Origin: Acidovorax sp.
Lineage (GTDB): Bacteria > Pseudomonadota > Gammaproteobacteria > Burkholderiales > Burkholderiaceae_C
NCBI GenBank assembly: GCA_004210805.1
Contig: SDXZ01000021.1
Location: 1 to 38,488, forward strand
Length of the DNA stretch: 38,488 bases
Direction: 5' to 3'
Part shown: one piece after another, positions 1 through 17,507 of the stretch
Layout: every line of letters begins with the position of its first letter
Position numbering within the stretch: the first letter of the stretch is position 1
The notes under the pieces: model-generated
The model's input: the letters and a program-made list of their open reading frames with translations, nothing else
Told to the model about the DNA's origin: nothing
Databases searched by the model: none
Program-made: the position numbers and the translations under genes

Positions 1-920
1 AGTCGCCCCCCGCCCCGGCGCCCGCAGCGCCAAAACCCAAGAACACGACGGGCACGGTCAAGATCACACATCCCGAACGGGTCATCGACCCCACGACAGG
101 CTTGCGCAAGGTCGACCTGGTGCGGTACTACGAGAGCATTGCCGAGTGGATGCTGCCGCATTTGAAGAACCGACCGGTGTCGCTGGTGCGGGCGCCCACC
201 GGCATCACCGGCGAGCTGTTCTTTCAGAAGCACCTTGAAAGCAAGATGCCCGGGGTGAAAGAGCTTGACCCTGCGCTGTGGCCCGAGCACGCAGCGCTGC
301 TAGGCGTGGATTCCGTCCAGGCGCTGCTGTCGGCCGCGCAGATGAACGTGGTGGAGTTTCACACCTGGAACTCGAAGGTCGCGCGCATCAACCAGCCCGA
401 CCGGTTCATCCTGGACCTGGACCCTGGCGAGGGCGTCACCTGGCCGATGCTGCAGGAGGCGGCTGAGCTCACCCGGGTGATGCTGACGGAGCTGGGCCTC
501 GCCAGCTGGCTCAAAACCAGTGGCGGCAAAGGGCTGCACGTCGTGGTGCCCATCGCACCCAAATGGGACTACACCGAGGTCAAGGCGTTTTCACAGGCGG
601 TGGTGAAACACATGGCCAAGGTCATCCCGTCCAAGTTCGTTGCGGTGATGGGCGGCAAGAACCGGGTGGGCAAGATCTTCATCGACTACCTGCGCAACGG
701 CCACGGGCAAACCACGGTGTGTGCGTTTTCGGCACGCTCGCGGCCGGGCATGGGGGTGTCCATGCCCGTAGCGTGGGAGCAGTTGCGCGAGCTCAAGGGC
801 GGAGCCCAGTGGACCATTGCCACGGCGCGGGAATATCTGAGCTTTCAGAAGGACGACCCGTGGAAAGCGTACTGGAATAAGAAGCAATCCATCCAGCAGG
901 GGATCAAGATGCTCCAGTGA
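1..920 (+). CDS. ligD: Multi-domain DNA ligase D, C-terminal polymerase domain (5' end outside window)
   Basis: The frame is open from the window edge (first full codon at 3), so this is the 3' part of a longer gene. The visible protein is the LigD polymerase/primase (Pol) domain of bacterial non-homologous end joining. Seen in it are the entry segment ITHPERVIDP, the metal-binding LDLDP motif with its two aspartates, the SGGKGLHVVVP segment of the nucleotide site, and a GKIFIDYLRN stretch, all typical of archaeo-eukaryotic primase-type LigD Pol. A Pro/Ala/Lys-rich linker at the very start (bases 3-45) suggests a ligase or phosphoesterase module lies upstream, as in the Pseudomonas-type order with Pol last. 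No ku gene is in view; it may lie left of the window. A TTG at 102 could be read as a start, but the domain clearly begins before it. Confidence 0.93.
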   Translation, partial: SPPAPAPAAPKPKNTTGTVKITHPERVIDPTTGLRKVDLVRYYESIAEWMLPHLKNRPVSLVRAPTGITGELFFQKHLESKMPGVKELDPALWPEHAALLGVDSVQALLSAAQMNVVEFHTWNSKVARINQPDRFILDLDPGEGVTWPMLQEAAELTRVMLTELGLASWLKTSGGKGLHVVVPIAPKWDYTEVKAFSQAVVKHMAKVIPSKFVAVMGGKNRVGKIFIDYLRNGHGQTTVCAFSARSRPGMGVSMPVAWEQLRELKGGAQWTIATAREYLSFQKDDPWKAYWNKKQSIQQGIKMLQ

Positions 921-1043
921 GCGCTCCGTCGGCCCCTCTGTCACGCCCGACGACGGGGAGCAACCCGCCGTCCGGGCACCCCGACGCCCCCCGCGCCAGG
1001 GTAAATCCGCCTCCGGCCGGGCCCTGTCTGGTTACCATTCTTC

Positions 1044-3662
1044 ATGCCCTTGAACTCTGCGATCTCTCTGAGGCGCGCCGAGCAACAGCGCCGTCAACTG
1101 AGGTGGCTGTTGATCGGCGGCAATGTGCTGTTCGGAGCGGCGATGACTGCCTTGGTCATTTCCGTGCTCGCATCCTCCCGCGAGATCCATGAGAAACAGG
1201 CGCTGTCGACCGCCGAGCAGTTTGCGGCGATTGCCAGCGCCAATTTGCAGTCCGAGCTCGGCGTGATCGACACTGCCCTGCGGATATCGGTGGACGACCT
1301 GCAGCGGGCAGGTTTCGGGGCCGGTGCCAGTGCCAAAGATATCAATACCAGCCTGGCTGCAAAACACAGCGTTCTGGACACCGTAGAGGGCTTTCGCCTG
1401 GCCGACGAGAACGGCTTGGTGCGCTGGGGAAACCTCGCCGAGAGCTCCGAGCCGCCCAACATCACCAACCGCGACTTTTTTCACCAAGCCAAGGAGTCGG
1501 CGTCGAGCAAACCCGTGGTGTCGGGGCCGGTCCAGTCCCGGGTGTCGGGCAATTGGGTGGTGATCGTCGCGCGGCCCCTGGCGTGGGGCGGAAAGTTCCG
1601 GGGCGTGCTCTACGCCACCGTCACGGTGGACCACTTTGTCGACATCTTCAAGCGCTACGAGCTGAACGACGGCGACGTCGTTTCCTTGCGCAGCGACGAC
1701 CTTCGGCTGTTGGCCCGATGGTCCCCCGGCAGCGCTGCCACAAGCGAAGTGGGGAACCAGCAGGTGCCGCAAGAGTTGCTCACGGCACTGAGCCACAACC
1801 GGTCAGCGGGAAGCTTCATGGCCACCTCGAGGATAGACGGGCGCAAGCGCACCGTGGCCTACCGGCAGGTGGATGGGTGGCCGTTCCTGGTGATGGCGGG
1901 ACTCGACAACGAGAAATTCTTCGCGCAGTGGGTCGAGGAAATGCGAACCGTGTCGGTGCTCGCCAGCCTGGTGTGGGCGTTGAGCTGCGCAGCGGCTGTG
2001 GTCGTCTACCGGTTCAGCCTGCGCGAGTTGTCCGCAGTGAGTGCGCTCGGTGTGCAAATACGTCACATGCAGACCCTGCTGCGCGTGGCGGGCGACGGCA
2101 TCCACATCGTGAATCCGGACGGAAAGCTGATTGAGCTGAGCGACTCCTTTGCGGAGATGCTCCAGTCTTCACGCGAGAAGCTGCAGGGCCAGCATGTGTC
2201 GAACTGGGACGCCAACCAGGATAGAGCTCGCATCGGTGCGTGGCTGAGCAAGATCAAGGACGGGGACCGGCAGCGTGTGGAGGTTCAGCACCGGCGTGCC
2301 GACGGCAGCGTCATCGATGTGGACCTGCACTGGCACGCGGTGGAAATCGACCAGCAACTTCTGATCTTCGCGTCCGCCAGGGACATCACCGCACAGAAGC
2401 ATCTGCTGCAGAGCCTGGAAGAGTCTTCCGCCCGGATCCGCGACCTGTACGACCAGGCCCCGTGTGGCTACCTTTCGCTCGATGCCGAGGGCCGCTTTGT
2501 CCATGTCAACGCAGTTGCGGCCCAGTGGCTGGGCGGGCCGGCACTGGGGGCCGATCATCAATTTGCCGAGATCCTGGATGCGACCACCCGGCAGCACTTC
2601 AGGGACCATTTCATCGCGCTGGCCACCCAGGACCACGCGCCAGAAATCGACATCTGCCTGTCCCCCGCCCACGCCGAGCGACGCTACGTGCGCATCCACT
2701 CCACAGCGGTGCGTGATGCCGACGGCAATTTCATGATGAGCCGCACCGTGGCCCTGGACATCACCGCACAGCGAGAAGCACAGCAGCAGGTGCAAGCGCT
2801 GCTGCGGGACCAGTCGGCCATGCTCAACAGCGATGTGGTCGGAATGGTCAAGCTGCGGGATCGCAAGGTGAGCTGGAAGAACGCAGCCTTTGAAAAGATG
2901 CTGGGCTACGGAGCGGGCGAGCTGGACGGGATGGACATCGAACAGTTGTGTGCGGAACCGGACGAGCAGCATGCGCTCGCGCAGGACACGCTGCTGCTGA
3001 TGGGCCGGGGTGAAAACTACCGCGACGATGTGCGCCTGAAACGCAAAAACGGGGAGGGCCTCTGGGTGGACCTCAACGGTGTGCAGTTGTCGGACGAAGA
3101 GTCGTTCTGGATGGCCGTGGACATCTCCGAAGCCAAGCGTGCCCATGCGCAGATCAGCCACGTGGCCTTTCACGATGCGCTCACGCAGCTCCCGAACCGG
3201 CTGCTCCTGCTCGACCGGATGCAGCAGGCCCTGGCAGGGGCCGAACGGTTCCGGCACGAGGTCGCGGTGTGCTTCATCGATCTGGATGGATTCAAGGCTG
3301 TCAATGACGCGTACGGCCACGAGACGGGCGACCGGCTCCTCGTCGCCATCGCCGCGCGGATCTCGGGCAGCATCCGGGCGACGGACACCGCAGCGCGGTT
3401 GGGCGGCGACGAGTTTGTGCTGCTGCTCGCGCCTCTGTCAGGGGATGAGTGGCGCGCCATACTGGAGCGACTGTTGCGATCCGCAGACACGCCGATTCAG
3501 CTTGCCGAGGGCCTGGAGGTCAGCGTGGGCATGAGCATCGGGGTGGCGTTGTCCACGGGGCGTACGCAGGCCGAGGTGCTGCTGGCCGAAGCCGATGAAG
3601 CGATGCTGCATGCCAAGCGGTCTGGCAAGCGCCAAATTCACCTCGCGGATGGACCGCTGTGA
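1044..3662 (+). CDS. Membrane diguanylate cyclase with periplasmic sensor and PAS repeats
   Basis: Predicted to make cyclic di-GMP from GTP. The 872-residue chain has a transmembrane helix near residues 21-43, a periplasmic Cache-like sensor to about 305, a second helix near 306-328, then about three PAS-type segments (roughly 340-700) ending in motifs such as ARDITAQK and VALDITAQ. The GGDEF domain follows, with the signature GGDEF at 787-791, so the active site looks intact. An RATD at 778-781, five residues ahead, fits the RxxD inhibitory I-site. There is no EAL domain, so no phosphodiesterase activity is expected. The ATG at 1044 has no obvious Shine-Dalgarno site, so the exact start is less sure than the frame. 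A hybrid kinase with a similar type of sensor region follows after 271 bp. Confidence 0.93.
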   Translation: MPLNSAISLRRAEQQRRQLRWLLIGGNVLFGAAMTALVISVLASSREIHEKQALSTAEQFAAIASANLQSELGVIDTALRISVDDLQRAGFGAGASAKDINTSLAAKHSVLDTVEGFRLADENGLVRWGNLAESSEPPNITNRDFFHQAKESASSKPVVSGPVQSRVSGNWVVIVARPLAWGGKFRGVLYATVTVDHFVDIFKRYELNDGDVVSLRSDDLRLLARWSPGSAATSEVGNQQVPQELLTALSHNRSAGSFMATSRIDGRKRTVAYRQVDGWPFLVMAGLDNEKFFAQWVEEMRTVSVLASLVWALSCAAAVVVYRFSLRELSAVSALGVQIRHMQTLLRVAGDGIHIVNPDGKLIELSDSFAEMLQSSREKLQGQHVSNWDANQDRARIGAWLSKIKDGDRQRVEVQHRRADGSVIDVDLHWHAVEIDQQLLIFASARDITAQKHLLQSLEESSARIRDLYDQAPCGYLSLDAEGRFVHVNAVAAQWLGGPALGADHQFAEILDATTRQHFRDHFIALATQDHAPEIDICLSPAHAERRYVRIHSTAVRDADGNFMMSRTVALDITAQREAQQQVQALLRDQSAMLNSDVVGMVKLRDRKVSWKNAAFEKMLGYGAGELDGMDIEQLCAEPDEQHALAQDTLLLMGRGENYRDDVRLKRKNGEGLWVDLNGVQLSDEESFWMAVDISEAKRAHAQISHVAFHDALTQLPNRLLLLDRMQQALAGAERFRHEVAVCFIDLDGFKAVNDAYGHETGDRLLVAIAARISGSIRATDTAARLGGDEFVLLLAPLSGDEWRAILERLLRSADTPIQLAEGLEVSVGMSIGVALSTGRTQAEVLLAEADEAMLHAKRSGKRQIHLADGPL

Positions 3663-3933: not shown

Positions 3934-6090
3934 ATGCGGGACAGCCCACGCACAGCCAAAAACGCTCCCGACCAAGCCGGTGCATCGGTTCGATGGCTCC
4001 GGTTGCTGGCCATCCTCAGCATCGCAGTGCCGTTGTTCATCTATCTCGTCGTGGGGGCCGCGCGGTATGTGTCCGCCCGCGACGATGCAGCGGTGCGGGT
4101 GAGCCGCTCGCTGCGCGTGGCGCACGAACATGCGTCCAAGGTCATTGCCGCGTCGGAAGCGCTGCAAGACAAAGTGTTTGCGCTCGTGAACGGCCGGAAC
4201 GCGACGGACTTGCGCCGCAACGAATCCGCCTTGCACGAGGCCTTGCGCAACCGAACAGTGGACCAGCCGCAGATCCAGTCCATCCTGATCCTGGATGCCC
4301 AGGGCAAGACGGTGGCGAGCAGCCGCCTCTTGCCGTTTCCGGTGCTGGACCTGTCCGATGGCGAGTACTTCCGTGTCCACCAGCAAGGCGCTCAGGGTAC
4401 GCACCTCTCCAAACCCATCATCACCAGGACGTCCAAGGAATCGGTGCTGAACTTGAGCATGGCGTTTCGCGACGACCAGGGAAACTTCGGCGGGGTGATT
4501 AACGTGAGCCTGCTCACGTCATATTTCGGGGCTTACTACAGCGATCTGGTGGCGGACGACCCTGGACTGGCAGTCAGCGTGTTCAGGGAAGGCGGGGAGA
4601 TCTATACCCGCTGGCCCAATCTCGGCAAGGCGCCCGACAAGCTGTCGCCCGACGGCCCGGTGATGACAGAACTGAGCAAAGGGGCAGAGTCGGCGCAACT
4701 GCGCGGAATTTCGTCCTTGAATGGAGAAGACAGCTTTCTGGCCTATCGCAAGGTGGGCAACTATCCGCTGTATATCGGCGCCGGCATGAGCCTGGCGGCG
4801 CTGCGCAACGAGGTGCTTTCCGAGCTGGGAGTATTGTTTGCAATGGGTGCGCTGCCGGTCGCGGCGCTGTTCCTCACGGCCACCATCGCACTGCGCAACG
4901 CCAGAACCGCGCTGGAGACCATGGAAAGCCTGGAGCGCGAGATTGAAACCCGCCGCCGCGCCGAAGAGGCGCTGCTGCAGGCCCAGAAGCTCGAGGCGCT
5001 GGGGCGCCTCACCGGGGGCGTAGCGCACGATTTCAACAATGCGCTGATGGTCATCAGCAACAACCTGCACCTCATCAAACGCACCACGCCCGGCGTGGCC
5101 ACCAAACAGGTGGATTCCATCGCGCGCGCCGTGAAATCCGCCACCAACCTGACCCGCCAGCTGCTGGCCTTCTCGCGCCGACAACCCCTGGTGGCAGAGC
5201 ATGTGGTGCTGCAAGAAAAACTCCCCTCCATCAAGGACCTGATCAGCCCTGCGGTCGGCAGCCAGATCCAGCTGGACGTGCAGGTCGACCCCGACACCGC
5301 GCCCGTGACCCTCGATTTGGCAGAGCTTGAACTGGCCCTGCTGAACCTGGCCATCAACGCACGGGATGCGATGCCCAAGGGCGGCTCGCTCACGATCCGC
5401 GCGCGCAACGCCACCGAGTCCGACGCCAGCGGCCCCACTGCAGACATGGTCCTCATCGAAGTCGCCGACACGGGGACTGGGATTGCGCCCGAACTTCTCA
5501 GCAAGGTTTTTGAGCCGTTCTTCACGACCAAAGCCGTGGGCGAGGGCACGGGCCTGGGCCTGAGCCAGGTGTATGGCATGTGCCAGCGGGTGAACGGGCG
5601 GGCGGAGATTGCCAGCGAGGTCGGTGTCGGCACGCGCGTGCGCCTGCTTCTACCCAGGGCCGACGAGCAGCCAGAAACGGAGGCCGCGCCCGACCCGACT
5701 CTGTCGTCGCTGGACAAGTCTGTGCTCATGGTCGAGGACAACGAGGACGTCGCCGCATCGCTGCTCCCGATCCTGGAGTCCCTCGGATGCCGGGTGACGC
5801 ACGTGGACCGTACCGCCAAGGCCCGCAACCTGCTGGAGCAGGGCGTGCGCCCGGACATCGTGCTGTCCGACGTCGTGATGCCCGGTGACATGGATGGGGT
5901 GGGCCTGGCGCAGTACATCCGCAAGACATGGCCACAGCAGCAGCTGTTGCTGATGACGGGCTACGCCGAACAACTGGACAGCATCCGCAACCTGGGCTTC
6001 GAGGTTCTGCCCAAGCCGTGCACGCCGCAGATGCTCTACACGGCGCTGGCGAAGCTGGTCAAGAATGGGCCGCCCCGCGCCCTGGCTTGA
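3934..6090 (+). CDS. Membrane hybrid sensor histidine kinase with C-terminal receiver domain
   Basis: Predicted two-component sensor of 718 residues: helix near 21-44, a periplasmic double-Cache-type sensor, second helix near 300-321, a short coiled coil, then a HisKA domain with H365 in AHDFNN. The ATPase domain has the N-box NLAINARDAMP, G1 DTGTGI, F-box FEPFFTT and G2 GEGTGLGL. A receiver domain closes the protein, with the acidic pair VEDNED, phospho-acceptor D646 in LSDVVMPG and the lysine in LPKPC. There is no DNA-binding output domain, so the signal must pass to a partner by phosphotransfer or by autoregulation of the kinase. The start is supported by AAGGA seven bases upstream of the ATG. 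It shares its whole layout with the kinase at 13993-16203. Confidence 0.93.
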   Translation: MRDSPRTAKNAPDQAGASVRWLRLLAILSIAVPLFIYLVVGAARYVSARDDAAVRVSRSLRVAHEHASKVIAASEALQDKVFALVNGRNATDLRRNESALHEALRNRTVDQPQIQSILILDAQGKTVASSRLLPFPVLDLSDGEYFRVHQQGAQGTHLSKPIITRTSKESVLNLSMAFRDDQGNFGGVINVSLLTSYFGAYYSDLVADDPGLAVSVFREGGEIYTRWPNLGKAPDKLSPDGPVMTELSKGAESAQLRGISSLNGEDSFLAYRKVGNYPLYIGAGMSLAALRNEVLSELGVLFAMGALPVAALFLTATIALRNARTALETMESLEREIETRRRAEEALLQAQKLEALGRLTGGVAHDFNNALMVISNNLHLIKRTTPGVATKQVDSIARAVKSATNLTRQLLAFSRRQPLVAEHVVLQEKLPSIKDLISPAVGSQIQLDVQVDPDTAPVTLDLAELELALLNLAINARDAMPKGGSLTIRARNATESDASGPTADMVLIEVADTGTGIAPELLSKVFEPFFTTKAVGEGTGLGLSQVYGMCQRVNGRAEIASEVGVGTRVRLLLPRADEQPETEAAPDPTLSSLDKSVLMVEDNEDVAASLLPILESLGCRVTHVDRTAKARNLLEQGVRPDIVLSDVVMPGDMDGVGLAQYIRKTWPQQQLLLMTGYAEQLDSIRNLGFEVLPKPCTPQMLYTALAKLVKNGPPRALA

Positions 6091-6385: not shown

Positions 6386-7189
6386 ATGACAACAACAGTA
6401 CGCAACAACGTGCGAGTTTTAGGCTCGGGGCCTGCGACCTTGTTCTTTGCGCACGGTTTCGGGTGCGACCAGAACATGTGGCGCCTGCTCGCGCCCGCCT
6501 ATGCCGAGCGCTACCGCACAGTGCTGTTCGATCTGGTGGGCAGCGGCAATTCGGACCTGAAGGCGTTCGACCCCGTCAAATACGGCAGCCTGCAGGGCTA
6601 CGCAGATGATCTGCTGGAAATCATCCGGGAGTTCGGTGAAGGGCCCTCCATCGTGGTGGGGCACTCCGTGAGCGCAATGATCGGCATGCTGGCCGATGTG
6701 GCGGCGCCGGGGAGCATTGCCGCACACGTCATGGTGGGGCCATCGCCGTGCTACATCAACGACGGCGACTATGTCGGCGGCTTCTCGCGGGAGGACATCG
6801 AGTCGCTCCTGGACGCCCTCGAAAGCAACTACCTGGGCTGGTCCAGCACCATGGCGCCGGCCATCATGGGCGCACCCGAGCAGCCTGCACTGGGGCAGGA
6901 ACTGAGCAACAGCTTTTGCCGGACCGACCCCGAGATCGCCAAGCATTTCGCCCGCGTGACTTTTCTTTCAGACCATCGGGAGCAGTTGCCCCTCCTGGCC
7001 AGCCCGACGCTGATCTTGCAGTGCGACGAAGACATGATCGCGCCCATCGCCGTTGGCGAGTACATGCACCGCGTCCTGCCGCGCAGCACGTTGAAGATCA
7101 TCGAGAACGTGGGGCACTGCCCCCACCTCAGCCAGCCCAGCGCCAGTGCCAGCGCCATGGACGCATTTTTGGTGGCGCAGGGTCTCTGA
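6386..7189 (+). CDS. RsbQ-like alpha/beta hydrolase
   Basis: A 267-residue alpha/beta hydrolase that closely resembles Bacillus subtilis RsbQ, the partner of the PAS-phosphatase RsbP in energy-stress signalling. Shared stretches recalled from RsbQ include GFGCDQ, VGSGNSDL, VGHSV, MVGPSPCYIND, FLSDHRE and the VGHCPH region. The triad is predicted as S94 (in GHSVS), D216 (in CDEDMIAP) and H244, with spacing matching S96/D219/H247 of RsbQ. RsbQ-type proteins have a small hydrophobic pocket and are relatives of plant KAI2/D14, so the protein probably binds or cleaves a small molecule rather than acting as a bulk esterase. The ATG at 6386 is chosen because homology starts there; the open frame continues upstream to 6065 but that part looks non-coding. 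The kinase gene begins one base after its stop, so the two are almost certainly co-translated. Confidence 0.9.
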   Translation: MTTTVRNNVRVLGSGPATLFFAHGFGCDQNMWRLLAPAYAERYRTVLFDLVGSGNSDLKAFDPVKYGSLQGYADDLLEIIREFGEGPSIVVGHSVSAMIGMLADVAAPGSIAAHVMVGPSPCYINDGDYVGGFSREDIESLLDALESNYLGWSSTMAPAIMGAPEQPALGQELSNSFCRTDPEIAKHFARVTFLSDHREQLPLLASPTLILQCDEDMIAPIAVGEYMHRVLPRSTLKIIENVGHCPHLSQPSASASAMDAFLVAQGL

Positions 7190-7190
7190 C

Positions 7191-8330
7191 ATGGCCGAGG
7201 AAGGCGGTGGCATCGACTTCGACCCGCTCGAGGACCTTCCTTGCGGCGTGCTCACCACCGACTCCAAAGGCCTGATTCTTCACACCAATTCCACGTTCTG
7301 CGAATGGACGGGATACCACTGTGACGAAGTGATCGGGCTGCGCCGACTGCAGGACTTTCTGTCCATGGGCGGTCGAATTTTTTATCAGACCCACCTGGCG
7401 CCCTTGTTGGTGATGCAAGGCTCGGTGTCCGAGGTGAAGCTGGACATTCAGCACCATGACAAGACGACCATCCCCGTGGTCATCAACGCCAAGCGCTACC
7501 AGCGCAATGGCGCCTGGTTCCTCCGCGTGGCAGCGTTCGTGGCGAGGGACCGCGACAAATACGAACGTGAGCTGCTCGTGTCCCGCCAGAACCTGGTCGG
7601 GATGGTGGCCGAAGCCACACGGCTCAAAAAACAATCGGAAGACCGCGCGCTTTTTGCCGAGCAGATGATCGGCATCGTGAGCCACGACCTCCGCAATCCG
7701 CTGTCCACCATTCGCCTCGGTATCCAGCTCCTGGAAAAGCGCGGAGTGACGCCGGACCAGAAAGAAACGCTTGGCCGGGTTCACCGCGCGGCCGACCGGG
7801 CCAGCCAGCTCATCAAGGACCTGCTGGACTTCACCTCTGCGCGCATCGGCAGCGGCTTGGCGGTGGCGCTCAAGCCAGTCGACTTGCACCACGTGGTCGC
7901 GCTTGCTGTCGAAGAGCTTTCGCTCGCCTTTCCCGACCGCCGGATCGACCACGTCCTCTGCGGCGAAGGAGCGTGCGAAGCGGATGCGAACCGGGTGACG
8001 CAGGCCCTGGGCAACCTGGTGGCCAACGCGGTGGCCTATGGCCAGGCCGATACCGACATCACGGTGACGTCGTCTGTCGCTTCGGCCGGCTGGCGGGTGA
8101 GCGTACACAACTGGGGCGTCCCGATCGCACCCGAAGCGATAGAGCAGTTGTTCATGCCCATGGTGCGTGGCGTTGCGGAGGACAGTGGCAACCGCAATGT
8201 GGGCCTGGGCCTCTTTATCGTCAATGAAATCGCCAAGGCGCATGGCGGTGGTTTGGACGTGACATCGACCCAGGAACTGGGCACTGAGTTTTCCCTCGGA
8301 GCGCCCCACGCAGGCCGGACGTCCGGTTGA
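7191..8330 (+). CDS. PAS-domain histidine kinase paired with the RsbQ-like hydrolase
   Basis: A 379-residue soluble kinase with no membrane helix. Residues about 12-130 form a PAS sensor that resembles the RsbP PAS domain, with a GGRIFYQTHLAPLL segment, IPVVINA and a closing DKYERELL helix. A coiled linker follows, then HisKA with H165 in VSHDLRNP, the N-box LVANA (N279), a variant G1 box VHNWGVPI, and G2 NVGLGLFIV. There is no receiver or PP2C domain. The gene starts one base after the hydrolase stop. I infer that the hydrolase supplies or presents a ligand to the PAS domain, as RsbQ does for RsbP, but that the output here is phosphotransfer. No cognate response regulator is adjacent; the receivers in the hybrid kinases nearby are the only ones in the window. 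Confidence 0.92.
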   Translation: MAEEGGGIDFDPLEDLPCGVLTTDSKGLILHTNSTFCEWTGYHCDEVIGLRRLQDFLSMGGRIFYQTHLAPLLVMQGSVSEVKLDIQHHDKTTIPVVINAKRYQRNGAWFLRVAAFVARDRDKYERELLVSRQNLVGMVAEATRLKKQSEDRALFAEQMIGIVSHDLRNPLSTIRLGIQLLEKRGVTPDQKETLGRVHRAADRASQLIKDLLDFTSARIGSGLAVALKPVDLHHVVALAVEELSLAFPDRRIDHVLCGEGACEADANRVTQALGNLVANAVAYGQADTDITVTSSVASAGWRVSVHNWGVPIAPEAIEQLFMPMVRGVAEDSGNRNVGLGLFIVNEIAKAHGGGLDVTSTQELGTEFSLGAPHAGRTSG

Positions 8331-8406: not shown

Positions 8407-9522
8407 TCAAAGGCGACCGTCCGAGCGCGCAGCAGGCGTTGTCGGGTCGGGCCTTTTACTGCTGCGGGCACGCAACAACCACATACCCGCCATGACCACC
8501 GCAACCCCGACCTGAAGCGCAGGCGGAAGATCGTCCACACCGCTGGCCTCTGCTTGCTGGGGCTCCTTCGCACGCAGCCCCAGCTTGTCGAGCTTGGCCT
8601 GCCACTCGGGCGCCAAGGCCTGCGCGCCTTCGTCCGCGCCTTCGTCCGCGCCTTGTGAGGCTGTTTCTGAAGCGGGCCGGTGCGACCCCCGCTCAATCGC
8701 ATACACCTTGGTGAACTCGGCACCGAAGAGAAAGATCTGCGCCGCGTAGTAAACCCAGATCAGCAGCACGGCAATCGACCCTGCGGCCGCGTACGTCGAA
8801 CTGACGCCTGCTTTACCCACATACAGCGCGATCAACACCTTCCCGATCTCAAAGAGCGCGGCGGTGACGGCAGCACCAATCCACACATCGCTCCACGCGA
8901 TCTTGACGGAGGGCATGAGCTTGAAAAGCATGGCGAACAACACGGCCTCCACACACAGCGAGAGCGCCAGATTCAGGCCCTGCAGCAGAAGCTCCCACCC
9001 GGGCATCAGGCCCGCGAAATAAGCCCCTGCGGCCGCCACCGCAGCGCTAATTACCAGCGAGGCGCTCAGCAGAAAAGCGAGCCCGAGGATCAGGCCAAAG
9101 GATAGGAACCGCGCCCGTACAAGGCCCCAGAGGCCGCTGGGCTTTGCCTTTTCGGGCACATGCCAGATGCGGTCGAGCGCGCTTTGAATTTCGGCAAATA
9201 CTGTCGTCGCGCCCACGATCAACAAGACGATGCTGATCCCACTTGCCACCACGCCCTCGGTAGGCTCGCGGGCGCTGCTGATGAGCCCCTGGATCGCTGT
9301 CGCGCCATCGTTTCCTACCAGCCCCGATATCTGGCTGTGCAGTGAACCCCGCACCGCGTCCTCGCCAAAAACGTAGCCAGCCACCGCGATCACGATGATC
9401 AACAGTGGGGCAATCGAAAACACGGTGTAGTAGGCAATGGCAGCACCCATGCTGGGCGCGTAGTCGTCAATCCACTCGTTCACCGATTTCTTCAGGATTG
9501 CCAGGATGGACTGCAGTTTCAT
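8407..9522 (-). CDS. YihY/BrkB (UPF0761) family inner-membrane protein
   Basis: Integral membrane protein of 371 residues with about six helices in the first 270 residues. The family signature near the N-terminus is visible (GAAIAYYTVFSIAPLL), as are the later WVYYAAQIFLFGAEFTKVYA segment and the hydrophobic helices around FGLILGLAFLLSASLVISAAV. The family was once called ribonuclease BN, but that activity belongs to another gene; its real role is unknown. The C-terminus is longer than usual: a charged, Ala/Glu-rich stretch with an ADEGADEG repeat, then one more hydrophobic helix (LQVGVAVVMAGMWLL). The ATG at 9522 is preferred to a GTG six bases upstream. It is convergent with the PAS kinase and divergent from recQ. 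Confidence 0.9.
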   Translation of the reverse strand: MKLQSILAILKKSVNEWIDDYAPSMGAAIAYYTVFSIAPLLIIVIAVAGYVFGEDAVRGSLHSQISGLVGNDGATAIQGLISSAREPTEGVVASGISIVLLIVGATTVFAEIQSALDRIWHVPEKAKPSGLWGLVRARFLSFGLILGLAFLLSASLVISAAVAAAGAYFAGLMPGWELLLQGLNLALSLCVEAVLFAMLFKLMPSVKIAWSDVWIGAAVTAALFEIGKVLIALYVGKAGVSSTYAAAGSIAVLLIWVYYAAQIFLFGAEFTKVYAIERGSHRPASETASQGADEGADEGAQALAPEWQAKLDKLGLRAKEPQQAEASGVDDLPPALQVGVAVVMAGMWLLRARSSKRPDPTTPAARSDGRL

Positions 9523-9909
9523 GGTCACGTCACCGTAGGAATGCTGGCGCGGGATGTCGCCAAAGTCTTGTGCAGCCTCCTGGATGGAGGCAGTGCAACC
9601 ACCCCGGACCGGCTCGGCAAGCGGGTACGTTGGGGGTCCGTTCTATTGTTTCCCTGGGGCTATCCGACAACGCGTAGGACGGGTTCACCGAACGTGTGCG
9701 CAAGGCCACTGGGACGCAGTCGCCCGGCCTCGTGCATCGTGGTCGCTCGTGCATGCGCTCAAGCACCCGCTGCTACCCCACGCCGCGTGGTGCCGCACGC
9801 TTCATCCCGTCTGACAAACGCATGCGCCCCGGTCTGTCGGAACGCCTTCCATGCGCGCGCCCATGATCGCCCTGACCACCCGTCGGGTAGCCTCGAACTC
9901 CCATTCACG
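9523..9909. other. Gap between divergent YihY-family and RecQ-like genes
   Basis: About 387 bp. The recQ frame stays open leftward to 9541, but the translation there is rich in Arg, Cys and Pro with no domain character, so I treat it as non-coding. Promoters for both flanking genes should be here; none was clear enough to place. Confidence 0.4.
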
Positions 9910-17294: not shown

Positions 17295-17507
17295 CTACCC
17301 TGCGCTGCCAGCCTGCTTCATGCGGTCCACATTGGTGGTACTGCGTGCGCCCTTGAGGTGCATCTCGACGTCAGCCGCCTTGTCGCCCACTTCAGCGACC
17401 GCCTCCTTCAGTTGAGCTTCTGTGGTGTCCAACTCATCCACCCAGCGCGCGAGTGAATCTGCGTTCTGGATGTCGATGCGATCGGGTGGGCTATCGGGTG
17501 TGGGCAT
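17295..17507 (-). CDS. Small DUF3606 domain protein
   Basis: A 70-residue protein with the DUF3606 pattern: DRIDIQNADSLARWVDEL, then LKEAVAEVGDKAADVEMHL. Members are small, mostly acidic proteins of unknown function, common in soil and plant-associated proteobacteria. The start at 17507 is well supported by GCAGGAGG just upstream of the ATG, although the frame is open further. It lies 160 bp downstream of merR on the same strand. Confidence 0.85.
   Translation of the reverse strand: MPTPDSPPDRIDIQNADSLARWVDELDTTEAQLKEAVAEVGDKAADVEMHLKGARSTTNVDRMKQAGSAG

Follow-up and report, generated by a model that had tools for sequence, protein, structure and literature searches.

Anatomy of the hydrolase–kinase locus

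The locus lies within a 38,488-nucleotide stretch of an Acidovorax sp. contig (the window), in which the features relevant here are:

1044–3662, plus strand: dCache-PAS-PAS-GGDEF gene upstream of the pair (Pfam)
3934–6090, plus strand: dCache hybrid histidine kinase, ending 295 bases upstream of the hydrolase gene (Pfam)
6386–7189, plus strand: RsbQ-type alpha/beta hydrolase of 267 aa (open reading frame, Pfam, PDB search, alignment), with triad S94 (codon 6665–6667), D216 and H244
7191–8330, plus strand: PAS histidine kinase of 379 aa, in which no receiver domain was found
7230–7559, plus strand: RsbP-class PAS domain, kinase residues 14–123 (profile, alignment)
7374–7403, plus strand: predicted F-alpha motif RIFYQTHLAP (alignment, RsbP genetics)
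7659–8306, plus strand: HisKA, with phospho-acceptor H165 (codon 7683–7685), and HATPase_c (Pfam, alignment)
8407–9528, opposite strand: open frame downstream of the pair

The hydrolase gene runs from an ATG at 6386 to a TGA at 7187–7189, and a single base (C) separates this stop from the kinase ATG at 7191, confirming the one-base spacing given in a preliminary description of the locus. In the PDB the hydrolase matched Bacillus subtilis RsbQ best (1wom; E 2.9e-86, 292 bits), followed by Olei00960 (242 bits) and chains of the plant receptors KAI2 and D14 (at most 211 bits), placing this homologue of KAI2/D14 clearly nearer RsbQ. KAI2 and D14 carry a Ser-Asp-His triad, as the window hydrolase does, and act through an F-box/SMXL pathway, whereas the partner here is a PAS kinase. 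S94, D216 and H244, the RsbQ triad that the preliminary description had noted, were invariant in all 75 rows of an RsbQ alignment comprising the window and 74 of the 80 loci kept from a genome scan (the best 80 of at least 556 relatives; L039, L051, L055, L072, L099 and L101 were outside the alignment). In its own genome assembly (90.8% complete) the hydrolase was the sole strong match, the other two scoring 28.5 and 23.9 bits.

Pfam placed PAS, HisKA and HATPase_c domains at residues 17–109, 157–217 and 265–372 of the kinase, whose closest PDB kinases by sequence were bacteriophytochromes. H165, N275, N279, N307 and G338–L341 were invariant across 27 aligned kinases, and the protein is predicted from its sequence to be an active kinase. 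Residues 124–156, a linker of about 33 residues, leave room for a coiled coil of at least 21 residues.

The PAS domain is the most N-terminal domain of the kinase. When a profile built from 23 RsbQ-linked PAS domains, window excluded, was searched against the whole genome, the window PAS scored 141.4 bits and the next two matches 48.2 and 25.5, which bears out the proposed resemblance to the PAS domain of RsbP; identity to the PAS domains of two phosphatase (PPM)-type loci, L111 and L101, was 38% and 32%. In the PDB, nothing scored above 30 bits against a profile of this PAS class, and that match covered a domain only partly. The nine class positions of RsbP (C10, L13, L48, Q53, F55, C56, Y59, E72 and P86; PMC3183031) correspond to C18, L21, L57, R62, F64, Y65, H68, E81 and P95 of the kinase, which also has P71; the window PAS fits all nine, in a correspondence that was made by spacing (a shift of 8, then 9), read on the 75-row alignment, which B. 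subtilis RsbP is outside, with the consensus letter at each position partly inferred. Across the 75 rows, position 18 was C in 70, position 21 L in 44 with V, I, M and F, position 57 L in 58 with F in 17, position 62 R in 58 with K in 17, position 64 F in 67 with Y in 8, position 65 (the place of C56) H in 41 and Y in 24, position 68 H in 72, position 81 E in 72, and position 95 P in 69. Outgroup PAS domains mostly end in a DIT motif (PMC3183031); this motif was absent from all 75 segments, window included.

F64 and H68 occupy the places of RsbP F55 and Y59, and genetics in B. subtilis (PMC3183031) suggests that RIFYQTHLAP is likely to be the RsbQ contact. Among congeners, the pattern RxFxxTHxxP was present in the PAS domain of five of five loci with RsbQ (L129, L139, L140, L145 and L152) versus none of five without it (L144, L146, L151, L153 and L154). 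Weaker PAS relatives (64–68 bits) exist in loci that lack RsbQ. The PAS domain that ranks second in the genome against the RsbQ-linked profile (48.2 bits) sits in the cyclase gene upstream of the pair, at 2433–2762; TH..P is missing from it, and its end carries DIT.

Within the window, the pair has no stand-alone response regulator gene next to it; the closest receiver domain lies at the C-terminus of the upstream hybrid kinase. In the genome as a whole, receiver domains gave 73 matches at E 0.001, of which 70 lay above the cut-off. Nor was a conserved response regulator found beside the pair among the kept loci (the best 80 of at least 556), several of which stop near the pair, so that neighbouring regulators are undercounted. 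Stand-alone receiver genes lay within about 1 kb downstream in the pure-kinase loci L033, L048, L093, L107 and L108, and a hybrid kinase within the same distance in pure-kinase locus L096, in differing orientations. Clustering of neighbouring frames yielded no third gene common to most loci; it returned a loose receiver cluster (6 loci), a cluster LysR-like by eye (7 loci), small clusters in close Pseudomonas and Massilia relatives, and minus-strand frames overlying the pair. The G+C content of the pair (63.0%) is close to that of the window (65.2%), so composition shows no sign of recent import.

Conservation, fusion and output of the pair

Scanning named bacterial and archaeal genomes gave at least 597 candidate stretches and at least 556 relatives. 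Keeping the best 80 by similarity made the sample rich in kinases. According to record titles, these loci come from hosts that include proteobacteria, Myxococcota, Bacteroidota and actinobacteria. A profile-detected RsbP-class PAS gene was present in 77 of these best 80 of at least 556: directly downstream of RsbQ in 75, with the PAS match starting −6 to 93 bases from the RsbQ stop, fused to it in one (L039), and 3.5 kb away in one (L055). Adjacency is thus not confined to this genome, as the preliminary description had proposed to find out by listing the pair and its outputs. By the profile, no such PAS was found in three of the 80 (L051, where the PAS is cut short, L072 and L099); with these three and one split pair, the pairing is not absolute. 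Of the 77 partners, among the best 80 of at least 556, 38 were histidine kinases, 35 histidine kinases with one receiver, one a histidine kinase with two, two PPM phosphatases and one was cut by a contig end, with Pfam run on 19 of the kept loci and partner start codons approximate. RsbQ relatives also occurred, at E 1e-50, on 66 of 72,556 plasmid records, 24 of them typed conjugative. Some copies look decayed: G010 has a stop within the hydrolase (L010:1501–2289), and L051 a shortened PAS (L051:7534–7959). On a Bradyrhizobium plasmid whose gene table is incomplete, a two-piece hydrolase (L197:2501–3281) has no listed gene and lies beside a listed kinase.

In a Polaromonas metagenome assembly (L039, 7001–8950), a single open frame of 649 codons encodes hydrolase, PAS and kinase together. 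A second RsbQ-PAS-HisKA-HATPase fusion, in G403 (L161:1408–3450), is 85% identical to it and free of stops; in a search of 399 family genomes, which gave matches in 57, it was the sole listed match spanning residues 1–648 without a stop. These fusions provide independent support for direct contact between hydrolase and PAS kinase. Hydrolase and PAS distances correlated over 65 loci (r = 0.62; permutation maximum 0.23, n = 1000), and the partial correlation of hydrolase with PAS given the kinase was 0.50, versus 0.30 for hydrolase with kinase given the PAS, after rows without a recognisable H-box were dropped and with shared history allowed for solely through the kinase control. The hydrolase tracks the PAS more closely than it tracks the kinase. 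On an RsbQ tree of 93 rows, output class changed 7 times against a shuffled mean of 36.2, with GGDEF labels for seven of nine congener rows assigned by likeness to the Pfam-read L005 and L160, two loci (L009 and L013) read short of their ends, and five of the 93 rows in no group.

Within the genus, an RsbQ-type hydrolase of at least 268 bits was found in 11 of 35 congeners (window not counted), and PAS profile matches at E 1e-12 or better in 23 of 47 genomes, own included; across these 47, only G000 and G063 exceeded 130 bits, the next score being 88. G063 carries a kinase-type pair, whereas other congeners pair RsbQ with GGDEF proteins (PAS-GGDEF in L005; several PAS domains with GGDEF and EAL in L160), so that output changes within one genus. 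The G063 and window pairs share 73% DNA identity over 6386–8290, and in the rest of the 16 kb compared only 158 bases match (window 17,330–17,487). The pair therefore occupies different neighbourhoods in the two congeners, and it may move as a unit.

We also observed bacterial hydrolases that are nearer KAI2/D14 than RsbQ, all outside the window:

L015:1474–2274, minus strand: KAI2/D14-like hydrolase, with partner gene at 109–1470, minus strand
L199:2872–3708: KAI2/D14-like hydrolase, with partner gene at 3998–4975
L198:2920–3720: KAI2/D14-like hydrolase, with partner gene at 111–2501

Their scores to KAI2/D14 versus RsbQ were 242 versus 165 bits (L015), 278 versus 171 (L199) and 272 versus 184 (L198), and the alpha/beta-hydrolase 7ukb was the single top match of all three. 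In congener G004, as on a Sphingosinicella plasmid, the gene next to the KAI2/D14-like hydrolase encodes a GGDEF protein, and these two GGDEF proteins share 36% identity over 314 aa; a Novosphingobium plasmid instead has a PAS-GGDEF-EAL gene upstream of the hydrolase. Such hydrolases seem rare: six of 399 family genomes matched at E 1e-55 (G004 and five at 37–41% identity), and searches run with no positive control returned none at E 1e-62 in 369 class and 398 phylum genomes, and none at E 1e-60 in 319 genomes when L199 was the query. Among the papers listed in literature searches, none dealt with a pairing of a KAI2/D14-like hydrolase gene with a c-di-GMP gene.

Relation to the known RsbQ/RsbP-PAS module

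The preliminary description recognized a hydrolase/PAS unit with a kinase output and knew of no described function for such a pair in this family. The pairing and its kinase output stand; the claim to be undescribed does not, since the module was set out in 2011 (Nadezhdin, Brody and Price; PMC3183031) and again in eLife in 2025 (PMC12143880). The 2011 paper catalogued 45 pairs of RsbQ and RsbP-PAS, with PPM outputs in Gram positives, histidine kinases in Gram negatives and GGDEF in both; in 36 of the 45, PAS and output are separated by a coiled coil of 21 residues or more. The 2025 paper reports that the module is linked across phyla to kinases and to cyclases, and it presents an AlphaFold model in which two RsbP and two RsbQ are assembled. 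The window pair shares with the kinase-output module of 2011 the RsbQ gene directly upstream, the N-terminal RsbP-class PAS with its class positions, the lack of DIT, the linker region and the kinase output in a Gram-negative, and we found no essential difference in what is available of that paper (PMC3183031). It resembles B. subtilis RsbQ/RsbP, of the energy-stress branch of sigma-B, in hydrolase family (292 bits), fitting PAS positions and gene order; the output there is a PPM phosphatase, whereas here it is a kinase. The window pair is thus real, well conserved and of a kind already described. The fusion in two species and the presence of the pair at unrelated congener sites were not seen in the available parts of those papers, a term search of the 2011 text in particular finding no natural RsbQ-PAS-kinase fusion (PMC3183031), and the output change within one genus is a further addition. 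Among the papers listed, none was found to report the function of a kinase-type member, which is a weak negative.

Proposed mechanism and the identity of the sensor

We consider the pair to be a sensing module of the RsbQ/RsbP-PAS kind, located in the cytoplasm and with a histidine kinase as its output (probability about 0.8), in which the hydrolase probably controls the sensor kinase. In favour of this reading are the RsbQ match, the PAS score with its margin over the rest of the genome, the nine class positions and missing DIT, the adjacency in 75 of the best 80 of at least 556 relatives, the fusions, the distance correlation, the seven output changes, the retention of the pair in G063 while flanks differ, and the restriction of TH..P to congener loci with RsbQ (5 of 5 versus 0 of 5). 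Against it we weighed the lack of an adjoining regulator, the three loci of 80 without PAS and the one split pair, the weaker PAS relatives without RsbQ, a G+C content without sign of import, and the lack of an experiment on a kinase-type member among the papers listed. Gene anatomy, the class of both partners, the conserved pairing and the conserved catalytic residues are direct observations. In B. subtilis the hydrolase docks on the PAS via F-alpha and is needed for output, the triad is required, and RsbP F55A abolishes RsbQ binding (PMC3183031); by analogy, the same docking site and need for the triad would apply here. Both genes are probably translated together. The hydrolase would bind, and perhaps hydrolyse, a small molecule and dock on the F-alpha helix of the PAS in the kinase dimer; the PAS would signal through the linker to HisKA/HATPase, thereby setting H165 autophosphorylation, and phosphate would pass to a response regulator encoded elsewhere.

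A metabolic hydrolase standing by chance beside an unrelated sensor kinase would draw on how common alpha/beta hydrolases are and on the NCBIfam matches of this one, which are metabolic families, all far below cut-offs; we rejected this very improbable reading on the adjacency (75 of the best 80 of at least 556), the fusions, the tree agreement and the pair-only conservation with G063. Nadezhdin et al. proposed two models for the module, either product delivery or a receptor, and called the cue mysterious in 2011; no ligand is named in the available parts of that paper or of the 2025 one (PMC3183031, PMC12143880). In the delivery model, which shares the module that we favour and differs in which partner senses, the hydrolase acts as an enzyme whose product, a ligand or cofactor, is passed on to the PAS, the real sensor, which would detect gas, redox, light or the hydrolase product. 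The triad fits this model, being invariant in all 75 rows and needed in B. subtilis (PMC3183031), but a receptor would need an intact pocket equally, and at the time of the 2011 paper neither a ligand nor a cofactor of the PAS was known (PMC3183031); we hold delivery to be a serious candidate at somewhat under even odds. The receptor model, which matches the small-molecule sensor idea of the preliminary description and to which we would give about an even chance, has the hydrolase act like KAI2/D14, the PAS reading its ligand-bound shape and hydrolysis possibly serving as a timer. It is consistent with the B. subtilis genetics, in which RsbP Q53A and C56A had modest effects and F55A and Y59A were null (PMC3183031). 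It also agrees with the PDB ranking of the hydrolase, in which KAI2/D14 chains come right behind RsbQ and Olei00960, and a lasting complex would fit the natural fusion. Homology to KAI2 is no proof of shared chemistry, however, and we know of no ligand for any RsbQ–PAS pair, which counts against a receptor.

More speculatively, and in our judgement improbably, the kinase-type pair might respond to a butenolide-like small molecule related to soil or plants, with the hydrolase as the ligand-gated part of this receptor and two-component phosphotransfer as its output, while a parallel and rarer branch, the bacterial KAI2/D14-like hydrolases, would signal through c-di-GMP enzymes. For the favoured module as a whole, autophosphorylation would be a direct in vitro readout in kinase-type members, whose PAS-kinase layout is simple, and in the fused form; it would serve both the search for a ligand and the choice between hydrolase and PAS as the sensor.
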